Assembly (NCBI GenBank): GCA_003142255.1 | Contig: PLLO01000007.1 | Span: forward strand, 1-64,000 | Reading direction: 5' to 3' | Source: Bacteroidales bacterium | GTDB taxonomy: Bacteria > Bacteroidota > Bacteroidia > Bacteroidales > VadinHA17 | DNA: 64,000 nt | Part shown: one piece after another, positions 43,094 to 47,563 of the stretch | Layout of the letters: each line of letters starts with the position of its first letter | How positions within the stretch are numbered: position 1 is the stretch's first letter | Notes under the pieces: model-generated | Seen by the model: only the letters and a program-made list of their open reading frames with translations | What the model was told of the DNA's origin: nothing | The model's database searches: none | Made by a program: the position numbers and the translations under genes

Positions 43094-44044
43094 ATGGACA
43101 AGACAATTCTAAGATCAGATTTTAAGTTTCCGGGACAGAAAAGCCTTTATAAGGGAAAAGTCAGGGATGTTTACAATATCGACGACAAGTACATGCTGAT
43201 GATTGTTTCCGACAGAATATCGGCTTTTGATGTCGTACTTCCTAAAGGAATTCCTTATAAGGGACAGGTACTTAACCAGATTGCTGCAAAATTCCTTGAT
43301 GCAACGAACGATATTGTACCAAACTGGAAAATAGCTACTCCCGACCCCACTGTGACCATAGGCTATATTTGCAAGCCATACCCGGTTGAGATGATTGTAA
43401 GAGCTTACCTGACAGGTAGTTCATGGCGGACGTACAAGTCGGGTGCAAGAGAGATCTGTGGAATCCGCCTGCCAGAAGGGATGAGGGAACATCAACGGTT
43501 TGAAAAGCCGATCATTACCCCCACTACCAAGGCCGAACATGGAAAGCATGATGAGGATATATCGCGCGATGAGATAATAAGGAGCGGACTGATACCTGAA
43601 AGTGAATACGATCTCATTGAAAAATATACGATGGGAGTCTTTATGAGAGGCTCAGACATTGCCGCCGGGCATGGCCTGATTCTTGTTGATACAAAATATG
43701 AATTTGGTAACAGGAATGGGAAGGTATACCTTATCGACGAGATCAATACACCTGATTCTTCACGTTATTTTTATGCTGACGGGTACCAGGAAAGTTTCGA
43801 CAAGGGTTTGCCGCAGAAACAGTTGTCAAAAGAGTTCGTGAGGGAGTGGCTCATGACAAATGGCTTCCAGGGACAAGCCGGGCAAAATATTCCGGATATG
43901 ACTGATAAGTTTGTAAATGAAGTATCGGAACGGTATATCGAACTTTATGAGAACATTACAGGCGAAAAATTTGTTAGAGCCGATATATCGGATGTTACCG
44001 GAAGAATAGAGAAAAATTGCAGAGCTTTCCTTTCAACATTGTAA
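43094..44044 (+). CDS. purC: Phosphoribosylaminoimidazole-succinocarboxamide synthase
   Basis: SAICAR synthase of purine synthesis, 316 residues, the longer form also seen in yeast and Bacteroidota. Motifs: '[33 protein letters not shown]' (ATP site), '[22 protein letters not shown]', '[12 protein letters not shown]' and '[31 protein letters not shown]'. It lies 11 bases after phoH and 11 before the LysM gene, consistent with one operon. Confidence 0.95.
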
Positions 44045-44055
44045 ATGAGTTTGTA

Positions 44056-46029
44056 ATGAAAATAAACAGGTTATTGAAGGCTTTTCTTACGACATTTATC
44101 CTGCTGTCAGTAATATGTCCGCTTAACGCACAGGTTAACGTCGAGAGGTCAAAGGATAAGGTAATCATATCCGGGACTGTCTTTTACATGCACCATGTAA
44201 AAAAAGGGGAGACTGCATATTCAATATCAAAAGCTTACGGAGTTACGGTTGAGGAGCTGACAAAAGAAAATCCGCCGGCTGTATATGGAATAAATGAGGG
44301 ACAAACATTAAGAATCCCAGTGAGAGATGCCGCTTCAAATGAACAGGTGCAGCCGGAGCAGCCGAAGTTAACGCATGATGAGGCAAAATTTATTTATCAT
44401 AAGCTTCAGCCTGGAGAGACAATTTTCTCTCTTTCCAAAGCATATGGTGTTTCGGAGAATGAAATTATTTCCAGTAACCCCGGCATTGAAATATCGAAAC
44501 TTTCGGTTGGCGCCGAGATAGCAGTCCCCAGAAAGGATTTTATGACCGACAGACAGGAATTTGCGGTACAGGAACCTAATTACCTCTTCCATAAGGTTGT
44601 AAAAGGAGAATCGCTTTCTTCCATTGCCAGACAGTATGGGCTCACTGTCAGAGAAATCAGAAAACTGAACAGTAATATACGTTTCCCACAGGTAGGAGAG
44701 TATATCAGAGTGCCTGCCCCGAAAGTTGTTGAGGCGGCTCCTGTTTCCATAATACCGGAAAAGGATAGTGCAAAGGTTGTGGCAGAACAGCCGGTAATTA
44801 CAATCACGAGGCCGGCAGGTTATACTCCTGTCAAAAGCCTTAAAGGTTCGTTTGATATAGCAGTTCTTCTTCCGTTCTATCTGAAGGAGAATGCTGTAAG
44901 GAATGAAATCGATTCTTCGGTGGTGAAAGGCCGGAAGATCTTCAAAGTAATAAACCGTCCGGATGAATTTATATACCCGGGAAGCTTTGGATTTGTTGAA
45001 ATGTACGAAGGCATACTGATGGCATGCGACACACTTCGTTCCATTGGACTTGATATCACAGTTCATACATTTGATATAAATAATGATACAATAGAACTGA
45101 CCAGGCTTATCAGGAATGGTCAGCTTGATGGAATGGATCTGATAATAGGTCCGGTTTATTCATACAACCTGGCAAAGCTCACTGCATATGCAGGGAAGCT
45201 TGGAATTCCGATTGTCTCACCCGTCCAGCTTATTAATAATTCAGCACTGCTGAACAACCCTAATCTTTTTCTGGCGAATTCCACGCTTGAGGTTGCACAG
45301 AATACCATTTCAAAGAAAGTGGGAGAATATTTCGACAAAAACTTTGTCTTCATTCATGGCGACACTGCAGGCATTGACCCTGATGTGAAGAATTTTAAAG
45401 GGAAAATTATTTCGGAACTGAGCAACAGACTCCCTTTTGAAGAAATAAAATTCAAGGAATTTATATTTAACACCAATTCGGCATTTAACAATGATTCGAT
45501 CAACAGGCTGGAACATGCTCTTTCAAATACTACCGACAATATCGTGATCATTGCTTCCGAGGAGGCTCCCGCTATCAGTGAAACACTTCAGAATCTTCAG
45601 AGCCTTTCGGAGAAATATGTGCTGAAAGTCTTTGGTTATCCTGTCATGCGAGGACTTAATAATCTTGAGCCCCGTTATTTATTTGATCTTAACATATTGG
45701 TGTATTCGCCTTTCTGGATTGATTACTCCTCAAAGGAAGTGAAACAGTTTAATGCAGATTTCAGAGAGAAATTTCTAACCGAACCTAATGAGATGAGCTA
45801 TGCCTGGCTTGGCTATGATATCACATATTATTTTCTGAGCGGACTGGCAATTCATGGCAAAGACTTTCTTTCTCATCCGGAAATGCATAACCCTAAGCTA
45901 CTTGAGACCGAATTTGATTTCAGAAGGAAGAGCATGAATGATGGCTTTGAGAATCAGAAATTGTACCCGGTAAGGTATTCTAAGGATTATGAAGTCAGGC
46001 TATCGCCTGAAGATGATCCGGCGCAATAA
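44056..46029 (+). CDS. Triple-LysM protein with periplasmic-binding-protein-like domain
   Basis: 657 residues from the ATG at 44056 (MKINRLLKAFLTTFILLSVICPLNAQ signal peptide). Three LysM repeats follow: 'MHHVKKGETAYSISKAYGVTVEELTKENP', 'YHKLQPGETIFSLSKAYGVSENEIISSNPG' and 'FHKVVKGESLSSIARQYGLTVREIRKLN'. They would bind peptidoglycan. From about residue 270 a type-I periplasmic-binding fold begins ('FDIAVLLPFYLKENA', 'EMYEGILMACDTLRSIGLDITVHTFDINND'), similar to amino-acid-binding proteins and LpoA. The combination is common in Bacteroidota and resembles an outer-membrane activator of cell-wall synthesis (inference). No transporter genes are adjacent. Confidence 0.85.
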   Translation: MKINRLLKAFLTTFILLSVICPLNAQVNVERSKDKVIISGTVFYMHHVKKGETAYSISKAYGVTVEELTKENPPAVYGINEGQTLRIPVRDAASNEQVQPEQPKLTHDEAKFIYHKLQPGETIFSLSKAYGVSENEIISSNPGIEISKLSVGAEIAVPRKDFMTDRQEFAVQEPNYLFHKVVKGESLSSIARQYGLTVREIRKLNSNIRFPQVGEYIRVPAPKVVEAAPVSIIPEKDSAKVVAEQPVITITRPAGYTPVKSLKGSFDIAVLLPFYLKENAVRNEIDSSVVKGRKIFKVINRPDEFIYPGSFGFVEMYEGILMACDTLRSIGLDITVHTFDINNDTIELTRLIRNGQLDGMDLIIGPVYSYNLAKLTAYAGKLGIPIVSPVQLINNSALLNNPNLFLANSTLEVAQNTISKKVGEYFDKNFVFIHGDTAGIDPDVKNFKGKIISELSNRLPFEEIKFKEFIFNTNSAFNNDSINRLEHALSNTTDNIVIIASEEAPAISETLQNLQSLSEKYVLKVFGYPVMRGLNNLEPRYLFDLNILVYSPFWIDYSSKEVKQFNADFREKFLTEPNEMSYAWLGYDITYYFLSGLAIHGKDFLSHPEMHNPKLLETEFDFRRKSMNDGFENQKLYPVRYSKDYEVRLSPEDDPAQ

Positions 46030-46133
46030 GCATTACGCGAAATAGGTTTCGTATCTCAATTGTTTTTATGTTAATAAAAATTAACAATCGCGGAATATTT
46101 AGATAATTGTTGTTGTCTATTAATTGAATAAAG

Positions 46134-46688
46134 ATGGAATCGTACAGGCAGACTGACGATAATGAGCTTATAAAGGCTTCAATAAACGGAGACAAATCAG
46201 CATTCGGCGAAATTGTTGACCGTTACCGGAAGCTGGTTGCAAGAACAGTCAAAGGGATGCTTGGAGATTCGGTTTTTGCGGAGGATATAGGGCAGGAGGT
46301 ATTTATTAAACTATATTATTCACTGCCGGATTTCAGGGGAGAGGCGAAATTATCTACATATATTCAAAAGATAGCAGTAAACCTTACCCTGAACGAGATT
46401 AAAAGAAGAAAAAGGTTCTTTTCAATGTTTGCGCAGAAGGGTAACAACGAAATGTACGAGTTTGAAGTTGCCGATGTCGACAACCAGGAGAAGCGGGAAG
46501 CTGCTGAAATTGTAAACAGGGCCCTGATGAGCCTGGAACCAAAGTTCAGGATCATAGTCTCCATGAGGATGCTTCAGGGCTACTCGACAAAAGAGACTGC
46601 TGAAATTCTGGGACTCCCTCTCGGAACAGTACTTTCAAGGTTATCAAGAGCCCGGGAACAACTGAAGAATGTAATTGAAAAATTATAA
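46134..46688 (+). CDS. ECF-type RNA polymerase sigma factor
   Basis: 184 residues. Region 2: 'KSAFGEIVDRYRKLVARTVKGMLGDSVFAEDIGQEVFIKLYYSLPDFRGEAKLSTYIQKIAVNLTLNEIKRRKR'. Region 4: 'IIVSMRMLQGYSTKETAEILGLPLGTVLSRLSRAREQLKN'. This is a group 4 (ECF) sigma factor for an extracytoplasmic stress regulon. The two genes right after it (gaps of 6 and 11 bases) encode a single-pass membrane protein and a periplasmic helical protein, as expected for an anti-sigma factor and a sensor. Confidence 0.93.
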   Translation: MESYRQTDDNELIKASINGDKSAFGEIVDRYRKLVARTVKGMLGDSVFAEDIGQEVFIKLYYSLPDFRGEAKLSTYIQKIAVNLTLNEIKRRKRFFSMFAQKGNNEMYEFEVADVDNQEKREAAEIVNRALMSLEPKFRIIVSMRMLQGYSTKETAEILGLPLGTVLSRLSRAREQLKNVIEKL

Positions 46689-46694
46689 TTGAAC

Positions 46695-47048
46695 ATGAAA
46701 ACAGAAGAGGTAAAGAAATTAATGATCAGGTCGCTTGAATCCGACGTATCGCCTCAAGAGATTGCAGATCAGCTTGAAAGTGCAGGAGTCTCTTATGATT
46801 TCAGCGATGGATTTGGCGATAAGGTGATCCGGAAAATCTTTTCCGCTTCGCTCTCTGTGAACCGCGAGGTTGAATTTGTAAGGAGCATGAACTACGTTTT
46901 CAACAGGATTGCCCTTACCGGAATAGCAGCCATCGTTATCCTGATGATATCTATTTTCGTGATGGAGGGATCATTTTCACTAAATTCAATATTGGGTCTG
47001 GGAAATAGCTATGATGAAAGTATTATCTGCATGCTAACCGGTAAATAA
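46695..47048 (+). CDS. Small single-pass membrane protein, candidate anti-sigma factor
   Basis: 117 residues from the ATG at 46695 (the track uses a TTG six bases earlier). A helical, charged N-terminal half ('TEEVKKLMIRSLESDVSPQEIADQLESAGVSYDFSDGFGDKVIRKIF') precedes one membrane helix (IALTGIAAIVILMISIFVM, about residues 74-92) and a short outside tail. No ZAS zinc motif or known domain is recognised. Its position directly after the sigma gene and its topology suggest an anti-sigma factor; this is inference. Confidence 0.6.
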   Translation: MKTEEVKKLMIRSLESDVSPQEIADQLESAGVSYDFSDGFGDKVIRKIFSASLSVNREVEFVRSMNYVFNRIALTGIAAIVILMISIFVMEGSFSLNSILGLGNSYDESIICMLTGK

Positions 47049-47059
47049 TAATCAGAAAG

Positions 47060-47563
47060 ATGAAAGCAAAACCTGTATTACTTGTCATAATTACTCTAAT
47101 TATCGGATTCGTTCTTGGAATGCTGGTATCAGCACAGGTACGGTTTCACAAACTGAAGCCCGTCCGTATATACTTCTCAGAGGAGAGATTCAGGGAAGGT
47201 TTCTTTAATGCAATTCAGCCTGATGAAAAACAGAAAGCTGAGATAGTGGTGATTCTTGATAAATATGCAAAGCTTAACGGCAGCCTGCAGACTGACATGC
47301 GCAGGGAGCTTGATTCAAATATAAAGGAAATGCGCAAGGAGCTCGACTCCAAGCTTACCAAAGATCAGCTTGCAAGATTGAAGGAGATGGAGGAACAGCG
47401 TCAGGAGATGATCAGGCAAAACAGAAAAAACCGTAACGACTCAATTGATCGTCATAACAGACCCGGAGGTCCCCAGGGTCATCCTTTTCAGGACGGAAGG
47501 CCGATGCCTCCTCCCGACAGACAATCGTTCCGGCCCGGTGATACTACCATGGTTAACCGGTAA
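47060..47563 (+). CDS. Membrane-anchored periplasmic helical protein (Spy/CpxP/CnrX-like layout)
   Basis: 167 residues. An N-terminal membrane anchor (VLLVIITLIIGFVLGMLVSAQ) is followed by a helical region 'QPDEKQKAEIVVILDKYAKLNGSLQTDMRRELDSNIKEMRKELDSKLTKDQLARLKEMEEQRQEM'. This has the spacing of heavy-metal-resistance/Spy-type proteins. It ends in a Pro/Arg/His-rich tail (RPGGPQGHPFQDGRPMPPP). Proteins of this shape sense metals or misfolded protein and control ECF sigma factors (CnrX) or act as chaperones (Spy). It ends 11 bases inside the convergent TPR gene. Confidence 0.65.
   Translation: MKAKPVLLVIITLIIGFVLGMLVSAQVRFHKLKPVRIYFSEERFREGFFNAIQPDEKQKAEIVVILDKYAKLNGSLQTDMRRELDSNIKEMRKELDSKLTKDQLARLKEMEEQRQEMIRQNRKNRNDSIDRHNRPGGPQGHPFQDGRPMPPPDRQSFRPGDTTMVNR

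Follow-up and report, generated by a model that had tools for sequence, protein, structure and literature searches.

A three-gene ECF sigma operon of Bacteroidales, predicted to be an autoregulated envelope-stress switch with a shortened class I anti-sigma factor

Results

A trio of genes on the forward strand of Bacteroidales contig PLLO01000007.1, at positions 46,134–47,563 of the 64,000-nucleotide stretch analysed here (the window), probably forms an autoregulated envelope-stress switch. In this switch an extracytoplasmic function (ECF) sigma factor would be clamped by a membrane anti-sigma factor, accompanied by a periplasmic partner resembling Spy and other LTXXQ proteins, and would drive a regulon that includes a small RNA. 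The gene layout, the conservation of the trio, the promoter motif and the repeated families of target genes were all computed directly. Examination of the open reading frames (ORFs) confirmed the layout given in a first-pass annotation made from the sequence alone, with three genes on one strand separated by 6 and 11 bases. The first gene (46,134–46,688, + strand) encodes a 184-aa protein with sigma2 and sigma4 domains and no sigma3, which matches Pfam Sigma70_r2 and Sigma70_r4_2 and scores 92.6 bits with the sigma70-ECF profile TIGR02937 (cut-off 42.9); it is an ECF sigma factor, as had been proposed. The second (46,695–47,048, + strand) encodes a putative membrane-anchored anti-sigma factor of 117 aa from its ATG, with an alternative in-frame TTG start possible at 46,689. 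Its single hydrophobic stretch (residues 72–90) agrees with the single-pass protein announced by the annotation and, because this one transmembrane segment is preceded by Lys/Arg and followed by an acidic tail of 27 residues, the protein is oriented with its N-terminus inside and its C-terminus outside. The third gene (47,060–47,563, + strand) encodes a helical protein of 167 aa, membrane-anchored and periplasmic, which is a probable sensor or co-regulator.

Relatives of the middle protein were found in 90 of the 117 genomes of the GTDB family to which the window belongs. The loci retrieved with this protein inside the family gave 72 rows, corresponding to 70 distinct loci, and in all 72 the trio was whole and in the same order. 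One sigma ORF (L019) was broken by frameshifts, which are probably an assembly error. At the order level, 15 of 295 sampled genomes gave a match, and a search of the phylum with the third protein yielded more loci in which an ECF sigma gene, a small middle ORF and a gene for a helical protein are adjacent. The trio thus recurs in further families of the order and more widely across Bacteroidota. The first-pass annotation had held that its proposal would fall if the three genes were not conserved together; since the trio is intact in every locus retrieved, that objection fails. A search of genome contigs with the middle protein as a single query returned only two near relatives. The source is a metagenome-assembled genome (MAG) of 3.7 Mb, and its nearest named relatives are Bacteroidales MAGs from fen. 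Two genomes (G060 and G071) carry two copies of the middle gene each, on different contigs, and both copies of G060 lie in full trios (L038 and L039). In the open-access literature we found no account of the trio, nor of any small RNA driven by an ECF sigma factor in Bacteroidales.

Upstream of the sigma gene lies a conserved ECF-type promoter (46,092–46,119, + strand), composed of a −35 box GGAATA (46,092–46,097), a 15-base spacer and a −10 box TTGTCTA (46,113–46,119), with the sigma start codon 14 bases downstream of the −10 box. The strict form GGAATA-N15-TTGTCTA was present upstream of sigma in 57 of the 72 family rows and a relaxed form in most of the others; the relaxed form was also found in several other families of the order. 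Within the window the exact match is unique. This conserved motif predicts that the promoter of the sigma gene is autoregulatory. A perfect inverted repeat, GTTAAT-AAAA-ATTAAC (46,070–46,085, + strand), lies just upstream of the −35 box. Of the 65 loci that bear the promoter, 36 have this repeat, almost all of them from the genus, and it always stands 5–6 bases before the −35 box. It was not seen before L120, the other exact target in the window's genome, and is perhaps the site of a second regulator.

We then searched for copies of this promoter in 58 congeneric genomes, where 136 sites were found compared with 56 for a reversed-pattern control. About 55 of the 136 belonged to the operon itself; of the other 81, 77 had the 15-base spacer although 16 bases were permitted. 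Thirty-four of these 81 sites precede a single family of small secreted proteins (L120:1502–2141 and 33 further loci), 27 of them at 28–35 bases from the start codon. This family, characterised by FAGTW..N..KS and a Gly/Gln-rich loop, had no Pfam match in the window's genome and contains no metal motif. Other repeated targets were a secreted Gly-rich family (9 sites), a family of small secreted helical proteins like Spy/CpxP (4), an uncharacterised secreted family (3) and TolC-like proteins (2), with HlyD-like and FtsX/MacB-like genes as single targets; the names of the last of these, a few efflux and export genes, come from reading the sequences. In the window's own genome (G000), the candidates with one mismatch, L123, L127 and the RNA locus L124, depend for their support on orthologues in relatives that have perfect sites, because one-mismatch sites barely exceed the control there. 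L127:119–775 encodes a secreted Met/His-rich Spy-like protein (LTDKQ...LTPEQ), whose Met-rich part could bind copper. Another exact site in this genome (L121, contig C14) was set aside, as its spacer has 16 bases and the start codon is not at promoter distance.

About ten promoter sites are followed not by a gene but by ∼150–240 conserved bases that end in a G+C-rich hairpin and a T-run and would be transcribed as a structured, terminated RNA. The candidate of the window's genome (L124:1501–1716; contig C7, ∼696,310–696,526) lies behind a near-perfect copy of the sigma promoter and is convergent to the gene for a membrane protein of ∼394 aa. The consensus combines a closing stem of long range with an inner hairpin and the terminator. 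Of its cells, 89.9% pair, and both sides have changed in seven pairs, compared with 3.2 in shuffles; these figures come from 10 sequences, with a structure derived from their alignment. The candidate is not in Rfam at the gathering threshold, the near-hits sraA and PrrB_RsmZ being far below it. A covariance model built without the promoter located the RNA in 23 of the 58 congeneric genomes, once per genome. Of the 13 members outside the model, nine had the sigma promoter on the expected strand, no more than 200 bases away and with two or fewer of 13 positions wrong, the opposite-strand control giving 4–6; the presence of the promoter near members found independently of it gives independent support to both the promoter and the RNA arm. 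Repeats resembling GGTTAGT occur in the RNA in two to four copies and are possible multiple target-binding sites. Such repeats (GGTTAGT/GGTTAATT) are seen in the RNA loci L173, L176, L186 and L124, and their number differs between species. Two coding interpretations were rejected: a six-member cluster of ORFs after promoter sites is antisense to a membrane gene of ∼400 aa, the conserved element being the terminated RNA, and a peptide encoded in the RNA would shift frame between close relatives (the window's genome and L181).

The first-pass annotation had recognised no homology in the middle protein. Considered by itself, this protein indeed has no match to an anti-sigma profile; comparison at the level of the family, however, links it to class I anti-sigma factors through a chain of sequence homology. 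Full-length relatives (∼139–143 aa) have four N-terminal segments (helices), whereas in the family alignment ∼21 residues, those at helix 3, are missing from the window form. One alignment accommodates both short and full forms, which have helix 1, the F-x3-F motif of helix 4, the transmembrane segment and the tail in common. When profiles of the N-terminal domain were compared with the transmembrane segment excluded, short forms matched full forms at 96% (E 4e-9) and full forms matched those of other families at 98% (E 2e-13), the E-values referring to single pairs. At the far end of the chain, L108 and L114 from remote Bacteroidota have H-x3-C-x2-C zinc-motif proteins in the same operon position. 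These pass Pfam zf-HC2 (L114, 43.6 bits; L108, 27.6 bits; cut-off 22.2), and that of L108 lies 0.2 bits below the RseA_N cut-off. Only in these two loci does a middle protein match a class I anti-sigma profile at its curated cut-off, which the window protein does not. Full forms repeatedly matched the NCBIfam profile 'antisigma', though under its cut-off: 8 of 29 members did so, at best with 1.3e-5.

Such homology to anti-sigma families, and the bona fide zf-HC2 anti-sigma factors that distant relatives encode in this place of the operon, speak against a different idea, namely that the middle protein has no anti-sigma function, being a small membrane protein that partners the Spy-like one, and that sigma is under transcriptional control only. 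The strong autoregulatory promoter would suit this idea, and the binding of sigma by the middle protein is deduced from homology and structure modelling; we nevertheless regard it as very improbable. An independent, non-homologous class of anti-sigma factor (like CnrY, class II) that merely resembles class I is slightly less improbable, though still a poor prospect: the window form matches no profile and short forms by themselves compare with zinc forms and with other-family forms at 3% and 6% only, but the full-length forms bridge the short forms to both of these ends, and helix 1, F-x3-F, the transmembrane segment and the tail are common to short and full forms. The tree of the sigma proteins also speaks against an independent class. 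All 50 short forms from the window's family group as a single clade (support 100/99) that is nested among full forms, and the very short forms require at least five changes; size classes were defined by the position of the transmembrane segment, and a few remote rows (L093 and L095) are borderline. From this placement the shortening looks derived and recurrent. In the very short proteins (L079, L081, L085, L087, L094 and L096), which have several origins, the N-terminal part preceding the transmembrane segment is ∼50–60 residues. Overall, the middle protein seems to be a class I anti-sigma domain (ASDI) from which helix 3 has been lost, and not a new anti-sigma fold. Like an ASDI, it shares its operon with an ECF sigma gene, both in the 72 rows, without exception, and in other families; the ASDI architecture, a bundle of helices 1–3 followed by helix 4, is incomplete in it, and the window form is a derived relative and no complete ASDI.

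Class I domains touch the sigma factor at two points, helix 1 meeting sigma4 and helix 4 meeting sigma2; helix 2 is not essential, three of four structures place helix 3 between the domains of sigma, and CnrY needs just two helices (PMC7406223). Helices 1, 2 and 4 are retained in the window form. The anti-sigma gene continues the reading frame of the sigma gene past its stop codon, and the read-through chain was therefore folded as one with AlphaFold2 (AF2). The fused chain, sigma and middle protein joined across the stop, gave a predicted local distance difference test score (pLDDT) of 85.5 and a predicted template modelling score (pTM) of 0.73. Helices in the middle protein were modelled at residues 1–12, 20–29 and 40–91. 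The last of these (fused-model residues 227–278; 46,812–46,964, + strand) is modelled as a single helix in which helix 4, the expected sigma2-binding element, runs into the membrane-crossing helix; the invariant F36 and F40 are situated at or just before the start of helix 4. With Foldseek, the TM-scores by target of the sigma part of the fused model reached 0.86–0.88 for SigW from SigW/RsiW and 0.81 for CnrH from CnrH/CnrY, compared with 0.46 for RpoE from RpoE/RseA and ∼0.3–0.4 for sigma factors bound to RNA polymerase. The structure prediction called for by the first-pass annotation thus returned, in a single chain with an artificial linker, a sigma factor in the closed shape that it has in SigW/RsiW and CnrH/CnrY. 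The model fits a wrapped, closed complex and the loss of the helix between the sigma domains, and together with the homology it suggests that the middle protein binds sigma.

Concerning the third protein, its description as a membrane-anchored helical protein was borne out by a hydrophobic N-terminal anchor (residues 6–24) and by long helices in the AF2 model (41–52, 56–96 and 101–133; pTM 0.47). The LTXXQ profile PF07813 was matched by 21 of 29 members at E ≤ 0.1, with L053 as the sole member just above the gathering score; the profile comparison with CpxP gave E 4.8. Two glutamines, Gln58 and Gln103, do not vary across 85 rows. These results point to a weak but family-wide kinship with LTXXQ proteins, and we infer a sensing role.

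The topology of the trio had been likened to CnrYXH-type metal sensing, and this parallel of topology holds: both systems combine a short membrane anti-sigma factor with a membrane-anchored helical periplasmic protein, the sigma factor is modelled in its CnrH/CnrY shape, and L127, a predicted target in the same genome, is Met/His-rich and Spy-like. A sensor of this type, whose third protein would bind Ni, Co, Zn or Cu and free sigma for metal resistance, is nonetheless unlikely, if less so than the two alternatives above. None of the His or Cys columns is conserved across the 72 rows of the third protein, and the commonest one for His reaches 32 of 72, so a CnrX-type metal site is unsupported; no metal-efflux genes adjoin the trio in the window, and the main regulon family is devoid of a metal motif. 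The Pro/His/Arg-rich tail noted in the first-pass annotation exists in the window protein but is not a conserved feature among relatives, and the label 'Spy/CnrX-like' is acceptable for topology and nothing beyond it. The genes flanking the trio are a LysM gene upstream and a convergent tetratricopeptide repeat (TPR) gene downstream. The former (44,017–46,029), directly upstream of the trio, has LysM repeats and a periplasmic-binding-like C-terminal part; it occupies the same position in many relatives within the genus, the upstream alignment showing its homologous 3′ end.

Discussion

Taken together, these results favour the reading as an autoregulated envelope-stress switch. In the resting state, the middle protein would use its cytoplasmic part to clamp the ECF sigma factor closed at the inner membrane, helix 1 holding sigma4 and helix 4 holding sigma2. 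On the periplasmic side, the Spy/LTXXQ-like protein would stand next to the anti-sigma factor's tail of 27 residues. The signal would be envelope stress, as the content of the regulon and the LTXXQ kinship suggest; it may cause the Spy/LTXXQ-like protein to alter its contact with this tail, the direction in which the third protein exerts control being likewise conjectural. Sigma once freed would transcribe its own operon from GGAATA-N15-TTGTCTA, as well as a regulon of secreted proteins, Spy-like ones included, and the structured small RNA. The autoregulatory promoter and the regulon are additions to what the first-pass annotation proposed.

Several results weigh against this reading. The window's middle protein alone has no match in Pfam, NCBIfam or PDB sequences, and a profile of its family has no match in PDB either; the comparison of full with zinc forms is weak, at 31%. 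The fused AF2 chain contains an artificial 3-residue linker and was built from mostly unpaired alignment rows. The LTXXQ match of the third protein is sub-threshold in the window (PF07813, E 0.011), and its model finds no match in the PDB with Foldseek at E < 7. Finally, the window's genome has perfect intergenic sites for two targets only, the operon itself and L120, and its one-mismatch sites number 11, compared with 7 for the control.

A broader proposal has, in our judgement, about an even chance of being right: that this is a phylum-wide envelope-stress system of Bacteroidota, an analogue of sigma-E whose class I anti-sigma domain has repeatedly been pared down towards a minimal clamp like that of CnrY, with a genus-level small-RNA arm carrying GGTTAGT-like repeats in varying number. 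Class I anti-sigma domains lie beside 6% of Bacteroidetes ECF sigma factors, compared with 32% on average (PMC7406223). If true, the phylum-wide system would account for part of this shortage, one likely cause of which would be that the domain is present but shortened past detection by profiles. The zinc form, the zinc-less full form, the form lacking helix 3 and the very short form would make up a natural series in which to ask which helices hold sigma. In addition, the predicted regulon would represent an envelope-stress pathway with a small-RNA arm in an order where few stress sigma regulons have been described.

Among known systems, ECF sigma factors with anti-sigma factors of the RseA/RsiW type share with the trio a co-encoded membrane anti-sigma factor that appears to keep the sigma-binding helices 1 and 4 (PMC7406223), and the window sigma is modelled in the shape of SigW in SigW/RsiW; the window form differs by lacking helix 3, by having only a 27-residue periplasmic tail and by its third, periplasmic partner. 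CnrH-CnrY-CnrX of Cupriavidus metallidurans has the same three-gene logic and topology, and its clamp on both ends of sigma would be shared, whereas in the window the order is sigma-anti-sensor, metal ligands are not conserved, there is no adjoining efflux operon and the anti-sigma factor would descend from class I forms. With CpxP, Spy and ZraP (LTXXQ family) the third protein has in common its helical periplasmic character and an invariant Gln at two LTxxQ-like positions, and Spy-like proteins are also among the predicted targets of the system; unlike them it has an N-terminal membrane anchor, a sub-threshold profile match and no fold match. The sigma-E regulon of E. coli is governed by an autoregulated ECF envelope-stress sigma factor and includes envelope proteins and the small RNAs MicA and RybB. 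The window system, though belonging to another phylum, with an RNA and targets unrelated in sequence and with no RseB-like protein seen, resembles it as a putative ECF envelope-stress sigma factor, predicted to be autoregulated and to have envelope proteins and a small RNA among its targets.
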